Assembly (NCBI RefSeq): GCF_041821065.1
Contig: NZ_JBGUAX010000006.1
Coordinates: 186,001 to 250,000 of the forward strand
Length of the DNA stretch: 64,000 bases
Direction: 5' to 3'
DNA from: Egicoccus sp. AB-alg2
Lineage (GTDB): Bacteria; Actinomycetota; Nitriliruptoria; Nitriliruptorales; Nitriliruptoraceae
The translations under genes were made by a program, and so were the position numbers. The notes under the pieces were generated by a model. It was given only the letters and a program-made list of their open reading frames with translations. It searched no databases and was not told the origin of the DNA. Shown here in pieces: positions 15,897 to 24,604 of the stretch (its first letter is position 1; every line of letters begins with the position of its first letter).

Positions 15897-15908
15897 CAGG
15901 AACGGTCG

Positions 15909-17110
15909 TCAGGCCGCGGGGACCTTGAAGGACTCGTACAGGTCGGCTGGGATCGGGTTGGCCAGCCGCCAGGTAGCGCGATCGGCCGCTCGCCCTCGTG
16001 GCGGACGTAGTCGGCCGGCCCGAGCAGCACGTAGGGGCGCGTGGCACCCCAGGCGTCCTGCTTCGACGCGCGGACCGCCAGCAAGATGCGTACGCCGTTG
16101 GTGCGCTGCTCGATGTAGCGGCGGGCCGCGGCGGAGTCCAGGCGGGTCATGTTCTGCGACTCCCAGTGGAACAGCTCGCGGCTGAGTGCGTAGTCGCGGT
16201 ACAGCGTCCTGGGCGAGTACTCGGCCTCGGTCTTCTGCAGCGTGATGAACAGCACCTCGGTGTTGGCCGGCGCGTGCCACCAGGGGCCGGTCTGGTGGCT
16301 GTAGCGCTCCCCCCGGCGCCAGCCGTCCGAACCCGGCCAGGATCTCGTCGCGGGTGTAGCTGGCGTGCAGGCGTAGCGGCACGTCGGCGTCGGGCAGCGC
16401 GATCGAGGGGCGGCTGATGCGCTCGCGGAGCAGCGGCAGGGTGGCGAGCAGTTCTTCGCGTAGTGCCGGTGCCTCCCAGACGCCGCGCCAGGCCGGGCCG
16501 AGGTCGTCGGGTGCGCCGCGCAGCGACCACAGGGTGACGAGGAACATCCACGCCCGACGACGGTCCACCTCGCCGTCCAGCACGGGTGGTCGGTCGGCAG
16601 AAAGCCCGGCGTGCAGTTGGTCGATCCGTTCGGCGACGTCGAGATGGAGCAGCCGTCAGACGCCCTTACGCAGCACGTCCACGCCGCGTCCGACGGGCCG
16701 GTCGTCGAGGTTGGCGGCACGACGCAGCAGCGCCCAGCCGCCGGCCTTGACGACGTCCTCTAGCTCGACGCCGGTCTCCTTGAGGAAGATGTCCAGCGGC
16801 GGGGCGCGACGGGCGGGCTCGCGGGCGGCTAGGCCCTGCAGTTCGCGGACCAGCGCCGTCTTGTTGGCCAGCACGGCCTGCTTGAGGTTGTTGACGACCC
16901 ACGCGCGGGCCTGGTGGTCGAGTTCGAGGTGGCAGCCCGACGGCAGGTAGGGGAAGACCTCCTCAGCGGCCTGGGCGAGCTGACGTCGAGGTAAACCGAT
17001 CAGCGCCCGCAGCCGCAGGTCGTAGCCGTACTCCCGGCGGTGCTGGCCGACGAAATCGAGCACCGTGCACACCGGCTTGTCGGGATGGCGGCGCAGACCC
17101 GGAGCACCTG
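15909..17110 (-). pseudogene. Decayed C-terminal half of a DEAD/DEAH helicase (DUF3427 type)
   Basis: Homologous-looking protein runs through three frames. CTVLDFVGQHRREYGYDLR to VDVLRKGV occupies 17072-16656. A second frame carries REELLATLPLLRERISRP down to about 16330. A third frame carries the DUF3427 core (EVLFITLQKTEAEYSPRTLY, LFHWESQNM). The second frame resumes at about 15980 and ends NPIPADLYESFKVPAA at 15909. At least three frameshifts (near 16656, 16330 and 15980) are needed, and nothing of the helicase motor remains upstream of about 17110. Intact relatives are superfamily 2 helicases often found in defence islands. This copy is almost certainly non-functional, unless assembly errors produced the shifts. 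Confidence 0.75.
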
Positions 17111-17311
17111 GACGCGTCGAGCGGTCAGATCCGCGCGGTTTCGCGCGTCATGGGGCGAACACCCGCGGTACCGCCGACTGCGGTCGCGTTGTCGCGGACC
17201 AGGGCTAGGCCACGCTGGAAAGCAACGGCGCACCGAGCCAGCGGCGAACCGCAGCCACGCAAGCCCCAGCGGGACTATTCTGATTGTTCGACGCGGATCA
17301 GGGGCACCCGC

Positions 17312-19012
17312 TTGCGACTGGAACGATTCACGGTAAACAACTACCGCAGCATCACAGAAGCAGAGAAACTCGACCTTTCCGAGTACACAGTCCTCATTGG
17401 ACCAAACAACGAGGGAAAGTCCAACATTCTGAGAGCGCTCGTCATGGGGATGTCGATCCTAGAGCGGGCGGGCGTGCGTGGTTGGACATTGGGCAACCAG
17501 TCACGGCTGCTTCTGAATCATACCTACTCCTGGGAAGACGACTACCCAAAGTCACTCCAGAAACGCAAAGCTCAAGGGCGGACGACACTCCGTTATGACT
17601 TTCGCCTTGATGATGACGAAATTCTATCGTTTTGGGACGAGGTAGGCAGCCGAATAAATGGCGAGCTCCCAATCGAAATCCAATTGGGCAAGGAACAATC
17701 ATACTTCCGCATTCCCAAAAAGGGACCCGGCGGAGAGGCATTAACAGCTAAGCGGAATGCGATCGCTGGGTTCATTGGTCGTCGGTTATCCGTCGCATAT
17801 GTCCAAGCTCAGCGAAGTGCCGCTGACAGCCAAAGAGAAGTAGACCGATTGGTGCGTCGTGCCCTCGATGACTTACAAAGCCGCGCCGACTACAGAGAAG
17901 CCCTAGAACTGATCGAGTCCCTCCAGGAACCAATCCTAAGCAAGTTGGCGGCTTCCCTCGAGGAGACGCTCTCCCTGTTTCTTCCCGACGTTAAACGGGT
18001 TTCTATCCGTTTGGATGAAGAAGATCGCCGCCGGCCCATCCGCAGCAAGATCATCATCGACGATGGCGATGAGACGCCATTGGCGGCCAAGGGCGATGGC
18101 ATTCAGAGCCTTAGCACTGTCGCCTTGGTGAAAGATGTCGCCGAGCGACTTCGCCTTAGCAATGACATTGTGCTTGCCATCGAGGAGCCGGAAGCACATC
18201 TGCACCCAGGTGCGATTCACCAACTTCGCGCAGTCGTTGAAGACATCGCAACTACGCAACAGGTCATAGTATCGACGCACAGCCCTCTCTTTGTGAACCG
18301 CAATACATTGGGCAGTAACGTCTTAGTTAGAGACAACCGGGCACGTACCGCCGAGTCGGTACAAGAAATTCGAGAGATTCTGGGAGTACGGACGTCGGAT
18401 AACCTACACTCGGCCGCCGTGGCAGTAATCGTCGAGGGTGCTTCCGATCAGCGGATACTTCAAGCGATTATTCCTACACTCTCTCAGAGTTGCGCTCGTG
18501 CCCTTGGGTCTGGAGAGATGGGCATCCAGGCCCTACACGGCGGCACAAACCTCTCCTATCGGCTCGGCGAACTTGAGTCTGGGCTCTGCATTCCACACGC
18601 ATTTCTCGACGACGATCAATCGGGGAGGACTGCGGTCACGAGAGCGCTGGATCTCGGTTTGATCCGCGACAGGGACTACAACCTCGCATCGCGTCAGGGC
18701 TACCGTGATTCAGAGATTGAGGATCTTCTGTCAGTCGATGTATACGCCGATCACGTCAGGCGCGAGTTTGGCGTGAACCTCAGAGATAGGTCGTTTACTA
18801 GCGCTCGAAGCAAGTGGTCAGAACGCGTAGAACGGTCTTTCTCGCGAGCGGGCAAGCTCTTCGACGATGCCGCGATGCAGCGGATCAAGACCCTCGTCGC
18901 CACGTCAGTCGAGCAGAATCCGGAAGGGGCACTCCTTGAACCATCGCTTGGCGTTCTACAAGGACTCGTCGATGCGTTAGAGGTGAAGCTCGGTGGCGTG
19001 ACTAGCACGTGA
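17312..19012 (+). CDS. OLD-family ATP-dependent nuclease (AAA ATPase plus TOPRIM)
   Basis: 566 residues if TTG 17312 is used (AGGGG seven bases upstream, TATTCT at 17276 as a possible -10); the longer frame to 17150 is unsupported. Domain order is an ABC-like ATPase and then a TOPRIM nuclease. Walker A is GPNNEGKS (30-37) and Walker B is VLAIEEPEAHLHPG near 287. The TOPRIM Glu is in VIVEGASDQ near 372 and the Asp cluster FLDDDQSGR near 431. OLD nucleases act in phage defence, alone (class 1) or with a UvrD-like helicase (class 2, Gabija); no such partner is present. Base composition drops to roughly half GC here, far below its neighbours, a strong sign of recent transfer. Its stop overlaps the next GTG. 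Confidence 0.85.
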   Translation: MRLERFTVNNYRSITEAEKLDLSEYTVLIGPNNEGKSNILRALVMGMSILERAGVRGWTLGNQSRLLLNHTYSWEDDYPKSLQKRKAQGRTTLRYDFRLDDDEILSFWDEVGSRINGELPIEIQLGKEQSYFRIPKKGPGGEALTAKRNAIAGFIGRRLSVAYVQAQRSAADSQREVDRLVRRALDDLQSRADYREALELIESLQEPILSKLAASLEETLSLFLPDVKRVSIRLDEEDRRRPIRSKIIIDDGDETPLAAKGDGIQSLSTVALVKDVAERLRLSNDIVLAIEEPEAHLHPGAIHQLRAVVEDIATTQQVIVSTHSPLFVNRNTLGSNVLVRDNRARTAESVQEIREILGVRTSDNLHSAAVAVIVEGASDQRILQAIIPTLSQSCARALGSGEMGIQALHGGTNLSYRLGELESGLCIPHAFLDDDQSGRTAVTRALDLGLIRDRDYNLASRQGYRDSEIEDLLSVDVYADHVRREFGVNLRDRSFTSARSKWSERVERSFSRAGKLFDDAAMQRIKTLVATSVEQNPEGALLEPSLGVLQGLVDALEVKLGGVTST

Positions 19013-19653
19013 CCTCATCATTACCCACACCGCGCAGATCAGTAATCGATAGCGTTCGTCGGCAGACCGTCGTCTCGGTGCGCCGTCGTTCGGGCGATCA
19101 GCAGTTGCCTGCGCGAGCCGATAACGTTCTTGGGTGCGGTGGCGGGTTGGGAGCGAGTGTGGGCTATCGCCAAACGGACTCCGACGGACACGGCGCCCCC
19201 AGCTTGGCTTCGAACTCGCTGCCAGCCTCATCCGACGCTGTCCGGCGCCGCTTCCAACGGCAGCGAAGGGCGAGCACGAAGCCGGAGATGCTGATCCGGA
19301 GGAAGCTGCACCGCAGGGGATGGCGATATCGCGTCGACACTGCGCCACTCGCGACCTATCGGCGACGGCGCGCTGACATCGTGTTCACACGGCTTCGCGT
19401 CGCCGTCTTCGTCGATGGCTGCTTCTGGCACTCCTGCCCCGACCACGCGACGCGTCCCAAGGCGAACGCCGAGTGGTGGCGTGCGAAGCTGCAGGCGAAC
19501 GTTGAGAGGGATCGCGACACCGACGCACGCCTCCGGGAAGCGGGCTGGGAGGTCGTGCGAATCTGGGAGCACGAGCCCGCGGAAGATGCCGTCGAGCGCA
19601 TCGAGCGCATCCTGATCGCGCGTCGGGATCAGTCGTCTTCGGGGGCCACGTAA
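19009..19653 (+). CDS. vsr: Vsr very-short-patch-repair endonuclease
   Basis: 214 residues from GTG 19009 (GTGA overlap with the OLD gene). The Vsr domain fills residues 75-205: FQRQRRASTKPEMLIRRKLH, the metal Asp of RADIVF, the intercalating/zinc loop VFVDGCFWHSCPDH, and NAEWWRAKL. It nicks T:G mismatches left by deamination of 5-methylcytosine, matching the cytosine methyltransferase encoded nearby. The first 65 residues are low-complexity and unlike the family, so TTG 19204 may be the real start. The 3' end overlaps the convergent nuclease gene by 25 bp. Confidence 0.85.
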   Translation: MTSSLPTPRRSVIDSVRRQTVVSVRRRSGDQQLPARADNVLGCGGGLGASVGYRQTDSDGHGAPSLASNSLPASSDAVRRRFQRQRRASTKPEMLIRRKLHRRGWRYRVDTAPLATYRRRRADIVFTRLRVAVFVDGCFWHSCPDHATRPKANAEWWRAKLQANVERDRDTDARLREAGWEVVRIWEHEPAEDAVERIERILIARRDQSSSGAT

Positions 19654-20408
19654 TCGATGGACTTCCCAGCCGCTTCGTAACGCTGGACGGCCCATCGGTC
19701 GACGACTTTTCCCAGAGTCAACGTGGTCTCAACACGTGGGCGTCCGCGATGCGGCGGAGCGTCATGGACATCAAGGAATCGAACGGCGCCCCGTTGAGCC
19801 TCGTCCTCGGGGTCGCCGGGGACGTAGAGCGCGATAGCCGCCGCATCGCATCGGGCCAGCTGGCTCGGCAGCGTGGGATCGAGGCGCCCAGTACGCGCAC
19901 GCAGGTGCGCGACCGCGCGGGCGAAGGACGAGGCGCCGCTCTTCTTGTCTTGCGTGCTCGCCAGCGGCAGGAAAAAGAGACCGACGAGGAATGCCTGCGG
20001 CTGGTAGCCGTGGATTGCGCTGACCTCGGCCTGGAGCTCGTAGGTTCGCCCCGTGAGGTTCTTGTCGAAGTTTCCGCTCGTGGCATCGCGAAAGTTCATG
20101 CCCTTGAGGCTGACTCCGAGCTGCAAGCCGGTGGCGAGTGTCGACGCGATCACGTCGACGCGCTTCTGGTCGCCTCCGGCGACGAAGGTCAGCGACTCCC
20201 GACCGCTGCCGTCGGGGTTCGGTCGAACCTCGAACTTGCTCCAGACGGGGTGTCGTGCCACCGACTTGGCGACCATCACCGCACAGGCGTCGGCAAACCG
20301 GTTGCTCCAGTTGTTCTTGTCCGCGCGTGTGCCGTCGAAAGGCCGCTCTCCGGCGGCGTCCAAGGCCGCCACCATGTCCGGCGACGGTTCGAGCTCCGCC
20401 CACTTCAC
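19629..20408 (-). CDS. Candidate type II restriction endonuclease, partner of the C5 methyltransferase
   Basis: 259 residues from GTG 20408 (AGGGG before it); GTG 20456, inside the methyltransferase end, is an alternative. I do not recognise a named enzyme. A possible PD-(D/E)XK core is KRVDVIASTL followed by LQLGVSLKGMNF: Asp, then Ser-Leu-Lys in place of Glu-x-Lys. The segment NFDKNLTGRTYELQAEV follows. An N-terminal DKNNWSNRFADACAVMVA helix is conserved-looking. Position directly after a C5-methyltransferase and opposite vsr is the classical layout of a restriction-modification system. The missing Glu means catalysis is unproven; another residue may replace it. Confidence 0.5.
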   Translation of the reverse strand: MKWAELEPSPDMVAALDAAGERPFDGTRADKNNWSNRFADACAVMVAKSVARHPVWSKFEVRPNPDGSGRESLTFVAGGDQKRVDVIASTLATGLQLGVSLKGMNFRDATSGNFDKNLTGRTYELQAEVSAIHGYQPQAFLVGLFFLPLASTQDKKSGASSFARAVAHLRARTGRLDPTLPSQLARCDAAAIALYVPGDPEDEAQRGAVRFLDVHDAPPHRGRPRVETTLTLGKVVDRWAVQRYEAAGKSIDYVAPEDD

Positions 20409-20436
20409 AATGCGCCCCTGTCCATGGGCGCGAAGC

Positions 20437-21606
20437 CTAGGCGGACCGCGTGTCACCCGTCAGGGGCAGCGACGGATCGAGCGCGTCGACGTGCCTCTTC
20501 GCATCGAGGACGAAATCCTCGACGAACCGCAGCCGGCTCCGCGCTGCGCGGTTCAGGAAGCCCATGGTGGCCCGGCGACTGAGTGGCGGGGCGGCCTCCA
20601 GATCGACGAGATCCGCCAGGTGCGTGTAGGGCCGGCGGACCGGCCAGGTCGACACGTTCATCTGGAAGGTCTCGCCGTCCGCGCCCCACGCGGCCGCCGG
20701 CCAGCGGACCTCGCTGCGTGGATTCGATGCCTCGGCAAGCCACTCCCCGGGCGTCTCGAGCCGGCTGGCCAGCCAGTCCGCCACGACAGTCGTAACCGCA
20801 TTGCCGACGAGCTTCCACCGCGGACCGTTCTTCGTGCCTGAGGCGACCGCCTGCGTCCAGCCCCGTGGAAAGCCCTGCAACTGCTCAGCTTCCTCGATGC
20901 TTGGAACTACAAGCCGGCGTCCCTCCGGATTGGCTGGCGCCCAAATCGCCGGCGGTGAAGCGATGCCGACGCCCGAACCACCCTTGAGCGGCGGCACGGC
21001 GTCGGGAGCCCATCCCAGCCCGCCGAGTCCCTCCGTCCAGTAGAAGCCGACGGCATCATCCCGGTAGTAGTCGTCCCCCGGCTCGCCAGCGTCGTCGGCG
21101 AACAGAACGCTCCTGGGATCCTCGGTGCGAGAAGCCACGAACAGGACTCGGTGGCGGCGCTGCGGAACCCCGCCGAAGCGGGAGTCGACGAGCCGGTAGG
21201 CCCACCGGAACCCGAGCCGCTCCAACTCGCCCGTGAGGAACCGCATGGCCTCACCCTTGTCGAGCCAGAGCATGTTGCGGACGTTCTCGAGCACCAGCCA
21301 GGTCGCGTCAGACTGGTCGAGCAGACGGAAGACCTCGCGCACGACGCCGGAGTGCTCGCCGTGAATACCTGCGGTGCGCCCGGCCTGTGAGAGGTCGGTG
21401 CACGGGAAGCCGGCGTTAACGACATCGACCGACGGGAGCGACTTGATGTCGCGAACGTCACCGACAAGGGGCACCCCTGGGAAGCGGTCGGCCAACACCT
21501 TCTGCGACGGCTCCCACGAGTCCGCCAGGAGTGTCGTCTCGTGGCCACGCTCATGGAAGGGCAGCTCAATGCCGCCGATCCCTGCAAACAGCCCTGCTAC
21601 ACGCAT
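20437..21606 (-). CDS. DNA (cytosine-5-)-methyltransferase
   Basis: 389 residues. The C5-methyltransferase motifs are in normal order. Motif I is FAGIGG (7-12) for SAM, motif IV is GFPCTDLS with catalytic Cys69, and motif VI is ENV (107-109). Motif VIII is QRRHR (149-153), and motif X is GNAV near 272. The target-recognition region between VIII and IX is short. An additional C-terminal tail of about 100 residues follows motif X, which is unusual. It protects the host sites cut by the adjacent nuclease; the Vsr gene would repair deaminated methyl-C. The recognition sequence cannot be read from the protein. Confidence 0.9.
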   Translation of the reverse strand: MRVAGLFAGIGGIELPFHERGHETTLLADSWEPSQKVLADRFPGVPLVGDVRDIKSLPSVDVVNAGFPCTDLSQAGRTAGIHGEHSGVVREVFRLLDQSDATWLVLENVRNMLWLDKGEAMRFLTGELERLGFRWAYRLVDSRFGGVPQRRHRVLFVASRTEDPRSVLFADDAGEPGDDYYRDDAVGFYWTEGLGGLGWAPDAVPPLKGGSGVGIASPPAIWAPANPEGRRLVVPSIEEAEQLQGFPRGWTQAVASGTKNGPRWKLVGNAVTTVVADWLASRLETPGEWLAEASNPRSEVRWPAAAWGADGETFQMNVSTWPVRRPYTHLADLVDLEAAPPLSRRATMGFLNRAARSRLRFVEDFVLDAKRHVDALDPSLPLTGDTRSA

Positions 21607-21758
21607 GCTCGTACCCCGTGATCGTCGGATGCAGCGGGGGGCGTGGGCTCGCGGCCGACCATGTTGGGCGGGACCTCCGCACTGGCTGGGCCAGTGGAGC
21701 GACAGGGTGCGACATCGCCGCTCTCGACCTCACCGTTCCTGTGGAAGAGGACGCCGGA

Positions 21759-21778
21759 GGCGCTTCCGCGGAAGCGCC
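21759..21778. terminator. Palindrome, candidate terminator after nrdJ
   Basis: GGCGCTTCCG-CGGAAGCGCC is a perfect 20-bp palindrome about 21 bases after the nrdJ stop (minus strand). It can form a stem of eight or nine pairs. No clear T-run follows, as is common in high-GC genomes. The rest of the 193-bp gap 21607-21799 shows nothing else. Confidence 0.4.
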
Positions 21779-21799
21779 CCCGGCCAGACATCGTTCGAC

Positions 21800-24604
<2,805 letters not shown>

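Follow-up and report, generated by a model that had tools for sequence, protein, structure and literature searches.

A predicted restriction endonuclease family related to XhoI/PaeR7I in which the second catalytic acid has probably been relocated

The acid or the Lys of a PD-(D/E)XK active site can be recruited from elsewhere, as stated in a review (PMC4081073), and in the CCGG-family enzymes PDX21-53KX12-13E replaces PD...(D/E)XK (PMC4652773, PMC6344858). The members of this family considered for comparison are Cfr10I, Bse634I, NgoMIV, SgrAI, AgeI, BsaWI and PspGI. XhoI and PaeR7I (PF04555), which are annotated as type II enzymes, are the closest characterised relatives of the proteins described here. 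Their canonical ExK is present in all 11 XhoI/PaeR7I sequences that we aligned, whereas the protein studied here has SLK. This protein is encoded in a stretch of 64,000 nucleotides from Egicoccus sp. AB-alg2 (contig NZ_JBGUAX010000006.1), which is referred to as the window.

The gene at 19629-20408, whose product we call the window protein, is read on the minus strand from a GTG start (20408-20406) to a TGA stop (19631-19629) and encodes 259 amino acids; the residue numbers used below (D85, S100-x-K102, E124 and E128) are counted from the GTG at 20408. The features of the locus are as follows:

17284-19012, plus strand: OLD/GajA-like ATPase gene, adjoining the Vsr gene (PF13175, E 1.5e-29; PADLOC Old, E 3.3e-33)
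19240-19653, plus strand: Vsr mismatch endonuclease (TIGR00632, 111 bits against a cut-off of 97.85; PF03852, E 9.8e-14)
19629-20408, minus strand: predicted type II restriction endonuclease gene (open reading frame, start, conserved residues, fold models)
20025-20027, minus strand: codon of E128, predicted to be the acid that has been relocated (counted from GTG 20408; acidic in 43 of 43 SxK rows and 0 of 13 ExK rows)
20088-20156, minus strand: codons D85 to R107, covering the part of the predicted active site that contains D...SxK (numbered from the GTG at 20408; alignment)
20437-21606, minus strand: C5-cytosine DNA methyltransferase, 389 amino acids, the predicted cognate modification enzyme (PF00145, E 4.9e-39)

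The original prediction placed the gene beside a C5-methyltransferase, and its coordinates proved exact: the methyltransferase gene lies upstream, with a gap of 28 bp. The methyltransferase also matches TIGR00675 (129 bits) and PADLOC MTase_II PDLC03324 (412 bits), and contains GFPCTDLSQ and ENV, which we take to be methyltransferase motifs. The Vsr gene, the real start of which is probably a little further upstream, is arranged tail-to-tail with the endonuclease gene, with an overlap of 25 bp. The ATPase gene belongs to the same defence-type gene block as Vsr and the restriction-modification (R-M) pair. The genome has a single copy of the family.

The best explanation of our results, to which we assign a probability of roughly 0.8, is that the product of 19629-20408 is a restriction endonuclease that forms a type II R-M system together with the C5-methyltransferase and Vsr, and that the enzyme has a PD-(D/E)XK fold with E128 as relocated acid. 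According to this explanation, the window protein would cut unmodified DNA at a site protected by the neighbouring methyltransferase, the cutting and the shared site both being suggested by the linkage of the genes. D85, where the second core strand begins, and E128, in the helix following the third, would hold Mg2+, and K102 would position or activate the attacking water, roles that are proposed from conservation and from parallels with known enzymes; S100 would fill the place of the canonical Glu of XhoI/PaeR7I, the acid having shifted to the helix. C5 methylation has a protective role in R-M systems, and Vsr repairs the products of deamination; judging from the identities of the two accompanying genes, C5 methylation would protect the site here, and Vsr would repair the T:G mismatches that arise after deamination of methylated cytosine.

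Strong evidence for a restriction endonuclease comes from the linkage with methyltransferases. We found 47 relatives of the window protein, giving 48 places when the window is included (several loci representing the same place count as one; hit H3, whose figures repeat those of H2, and hit H12, with 28% cover, were left out, and L057 and L058 are partial). A DNA methyltransferase lies beside 45 of the 48, and these belong to three classes: C5 (4 places), gamma/Eco57I-like N6 (39, including G001, which has both C5 and N6 genes) and TSPPY-type N6_N4_Mtase (2); two of the 45 places, both in genome G005, share one methyltransferase. In a control, the same queries run over 128,906 bases (the window and nine other loci) detected no methyltransferase except the window's own. 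Pairing with several methyltransferase classes would be the pattern of a restriction endonuclease family. The three remaining places are L003, where no methyltransferase was recognised within 12.7 kb and the four neighbouring genes tested had no Pfam match; G035, which lies 483 bases from a contig end; and G569, a truncated copy. Vsr adjoins the pair in all three C5-linked places in which both flanks are present (the window, G319 and G644); the fourth, L001, ends inside the gene. In G001, which is of the same genus as the window (L068 5967-10025), a family member lies between a C5-methyltransferase (54% identity to that of the window) and an N6 methyltransferase.

The window-protein family is absent from the annotation libraries searched (Pfam, NCBIfam, PADLOC and PDB sequences). 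The window protein has no Pfam or PADLOC match at E 1, its sole NCBIfam match (E 0.082) falls far under the cut-off of that model, and its one match among PDB sequences, at E 0.08, is to a chain named b-iTHR-110. Two distant members, L060 and L062, match PADLOC REase_II PDLC03558 (E 1.9e-12 and 5.6e-10, respectively) and four others do so weakly; the window protein itself does not match this model at E 1. Scanning a genome collection turned up a 59% identical protein, encoded behind a C5-methyltransferase in an Acidimicrobiales MAG (L001). A plasmid search retrieved L003, on a plasmid of Pseudomonas sp. FeN3W (43%), plus five records with 31-33% identity; four of the latter (L004-L007) were inspected, and in each of them the upstream gene, which encodes an N-6 DNA methylase, overlaps that of the relative. 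The same overlapping methylase is present on all four viral contigs found with a seven-row alignment (A1), which also detected the family in six genomes, counting that of the window, out of 396 from the phylum. With a 16-row profile (A2), 6 of 66 genomes from the class were positive, again including the window's own; in a second class of the phylum, 29 of the 394 genomes sampled carried a member of the wide family. Phage records yielded no match for the window protein or for L004, viral contigs none when searched with the window protein alone or with L018 alone, and scans of viral contigs with alignments A3 and A6 added no further contigs; a tblastx survey was too noisy for use. Among the relatives is a second subfamily of about 340 amino acids, two copies of which are on viral contigs. 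These contigs (L027 and L028) carry a complete methyltransferase-endonuclease pair of this subfamily, and the flanking open reading frames are presumably portal- and terminase-like. In the full tree, the window protein clusters with L001, L003, G319 and G644 (support 99/93), and this clade adjoins a compact N6-linked clade (98/98), with several long branches that leave the deeper joins unsure. A literature search, in which subscription journals were little covered, retrieved no paper on the window-protein family or on an active-site exchange in XhoI/PaeR7I.

The relationship with XhoI/PaeR7I became apparent through the more distant members. L066 matches PF04555 with E 4.2e-4 over residues 36-129, which comprise the core, and the second copy at L019 does so with E 0.032; the window protein has no match to this model at E 1, and the best score of any family member is 20.7 bits, the Pfam cut-off being 25. 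When compared by hhalign with a three-row XhoI alignment, the wide family scored 54.5 (maximum of 150 column shuffles, 19.9) and the 340-aa subfamily 61.5 (maximum of 150, 22.9). The scores were marginal for A1 (24.6; shuffled 21.0) and for the compact clade against 11 XhoI rows (24.2; 100 shuffles, 19.5). The C5-linked clade alone did not match these 11 rows significantly (15.8, while its shuffles reach 23.5), and A8 gave no link in a profile comparison with XhoI. Since A1 matches the 340-aa subfamily (score 59.2, probability 94.4), the kinship of the window protein with XhoI is transitive, through its relatives. As judged by these profile comparisons, the wide family is homologous to XhoI/PaeR7I. 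The two share the core K..D...[E/S]xK...NN..NR.[E/D]E..G, and in most members of both the gene lies behind an N6 methyltransferase; the window protein differs from XhoI/PaeR7I in scoring below the PF04555 model and in having a C5 enzyme with Vsr as its partner. The 11 aligned XhoI/PaeR7I sequences consist of three PF04555 members from genomes and eight from plasmids, including paeR7IR of pRSB105, and were taken from three genomes over the cut-off and 110 plasmid records with XhoI-type places. PF04555 members are rare in genomes (4 of 325, the weak L066 place included).

The strings KRVDV and GVSLKGMNF, in which the original prediction had recognised a PD-(D/E)XK-like core with Ser in place of Glu, are both present in the window protein and contain D85, S100 and K102. 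A 16-row alignment, in which the other sequences share 19-64% identity with the window protein, shows no variation at K82, D85, G94, S100 or K102, and the motif is therefore not a chance occurrence. In our widest alignment, which has 59 rows (48 family members and 11 XhoI/PaeR7I), D85 is found in all rows and K102 in 57, so that the Asp of the PD-(D/E)XK site and, on the next core strand, its Lys are both in place. Position 100 is Ser in 43 of the rows, Glu in 13 (the 11 XhoI/PaeR7I sequences plus L067 and L020), Gly in two and Asp in one. Position 128 changes reciprocally: it is Asp or Glu in 43 of the 43 Ser100 rows, whereas all 13 Glu100 rows have S, T, N, L or F. Hence, XhoI/PaeR7I combine ExK with one of these five residues, whereas the window-protein family combines SxK with an acid. 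Three members deviate from the exchange, namely L064, which has DxK with E128, and L060 and L062, which have G-x-R with E128. The two G-x-R forms lie beside an N6 methyltransferase. On the best tree constructed without columns 100 and 128, both traits need two changes. A single origin of ExK was not rejected (AU p 0.265, with five ExK rows in that tree), and the 43/13 count therefore does not represent 56 independent events; an independent-pairs sign test was without power.

The reciprocal exchange suggests that E128, rather than the Asp of NFRD, is the relocated acid, and E128 would then be a candidate spatial substitute for the Glu of ExK. The original prediction had proposed both the Asp of NFRD and the Glu of TYELQAE as possible relocated acids; the second proposal fits the exchange, E128 being the last Glu of that string, and the first was dropped. 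The NFRD Asp (D108) was rejected as a family-wide moved acid, since 36 of 51 rows have no residue in its column.

A structural model of the window protein, predicted from eight alignment rows, has a pLDDT of 62.4 and a pTM of 0.64, and its elements include H28-52, E86-90, E94-103, H115-135 and E140-148. L008, a viral relative that is 28% identical to the window protein, was modelled from the same rows with a pLDDT of 82.4 and a pTM of 0.82 and has the same core. In both models the order is helix-strand-strand-strand-helix-strand, which is that of the alpha-beta-beta-beta-alpha-beta core of PD-(D/E)XK enzymes. Foldseek found no match in the PDB at E 0.001 for either model, so the fold assignment rests on this topology and on a second aligner, VIA-align. 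The best VIA-align match of the window model is PaqCI (Z 7.5, rmsd 4.3, 138 residues aligned), with NucC, the BspD6I small subunit, BbvCI, PspGI, AgeI, Bse634I and BsaWI among its further top rows, all of which fall below Z 8, the level from which the tool's scores are trusted. The L008 model scores above that level with NucC (Z 9.6, rmsd 3.7, 175 aligned), NgoMIV (9.3, 3.9, 172), BbvCI (9.2, 4.4, 166), PspGI (8.5, 3.9, 167), AgeI (8.5, 4.2, 180), Bse634I (8.1, 3.8, 163) and BsaWI (8.1, 4.1, 165). Its rows 1-11 are nucleases (Z 9.6-8.1), and rows 1-20 are all presumably PD-(D/E)XK nucleases, including 13 CCGG-family chains; an acetyl-CoA carboxylase, with Z 7.1, is the highest-ranking unrelated protein. 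The predicted models thus support a PD-(D/E)XK fold for the window-protein family, as the original prediction had anticipated from the motif. Its broader proposal of a PD-(D/E)XK-type restriction endonuclease with a relocated acid is likewise supported by the linkage, the predicted fold, the homology with XhoI and the exchange between positions 100 and 128.

Several other explanations were weighed. An enzyme that is indeed an endonuclease, but in which E124 is the second catalytic acid and E128 serves a structural or DNA-contact role, would account for the presence of D or E at position 124 in 57 of the 59 rows, in ExK and SxK forms alike, and for its location, one helical turn before 128 and nearer the start of the helix in the L008 model. 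As a replacement for the lost Glu, however, an acid at 124 should not persist in 13 of 13 ExK rows, and only position 128 changes with position 100, which makes this assignment rather unlikely. We regard as improbable that the protein is a restriction-type nuclease inactivated by the loss of the Glu, or that it partners the methyltransferase without cutting. The canonical Glu is indeed absent, and two distant relatives have G-x-R, but decay would not have preserved D85, S100, K102 and the acid at 128 in 43 rows, which come from phages, plasmids and chromosomes, and enzymes with an arrangement of the same kind do cut DNA (PMC4652773, PMC6344858).

Slightly less probable still is an endonuclease that nicks DNA or depends on its modification (type IV) and is not the type II partner of this methyltransferase. 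Some PD-(D/E)XK enzymes are of these kinds, and L003 has no recognised methyltransferase nearby; the tight pairing with three classes of methyltransferase and the type II annotation of XhoI/PaeR7I argue against it. It is very improbable that the window protein belongs to a known non-nuclease family and carries the motif by chance: the top Foldseek rows for its model are dehydrogenases, with poor scores, but the first two of these alignments have an rmsd near 20 and a TM of 0.2, and both the L008 model and the profile comparison point to restriction enzymes.

The type II restriction endonuclease with E128 as relocated acid that we favour resembles the CCGG family in the sequence pattern PD...K...D/E, which suggests the same kind of permuted site, and CCGG enzymes are prominent in the top structural matches found with the L008 model. 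By analogy, we infer that the window enzyme works like these permuted-site enzymes. The two differ in spacing, which is K-x25-E in the window protein and K-x12-13-E in the CCGG family, and the window protein has no sequence match among the CCGG-family PDB sequences. Moreover, the R-(D/E)R recognition motif is absent after K102 (FRDA in the window protein; FQDY, FRDF, FRDA or TPDG in the other rows of the C5 clade), and the window protein is therefore not a CCGG-family member by this motif. The structural matches and the C5 enzyme led us to consider CCGG as recognition site, but this motif is missing, and a fold close to that of CCGG enzymes does not in itself speak for such a site. The relocated acid itself is already known from Cfr10I/NgoMIV, and a redesign of Cfr10I was reportedly published by Skirgaila in 1998; accordingly, of the novelty that the original prediction suggested, the family is new and the chemistry is not. 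We lean towards the view that the XhoI superfamily independently made a CCGG-type Ser/Glu exchange, which would have given rise to a large sister family with SxK and a helix acid, located beside C5, gamma-N6 and TSPPY methyltransferases and facing the branch that has the canonical ExK; the exchange would parallel the acid relocation of Cfr10I and was possibly made twice.

These results name a family of probable restriction enzymes that is missing from the annotation libraries searched. Relatives that have the acid at either of two places within one fold would permit a clean test of active-site evolution, and new type II enzymes may supply new recognition sites for laboratory use.

The surroundings of the gene were compared with the genus-mate G002 (L084). 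G002 has a gene that we take to be of the nrdJ type and a counterpart of window 15908-17099, and between them lies a DEAD/PLD/DUF3427 helicase gene, of which the greater part is present. The corresponding interval of the window (17100-21800) contains the ATPase-Vsr-R-M block and a remnant of this helicase gene. This interval looks like a defence-gene hotspot. In G005 (L072 6960-16104), beside the same presumed nrdJ-type gene, two different relatives of the window protein flank one Eco57I-like methyltransferase and are perhaps a two-subunit enzyme; a HEPN gene adjoins this R-M system.
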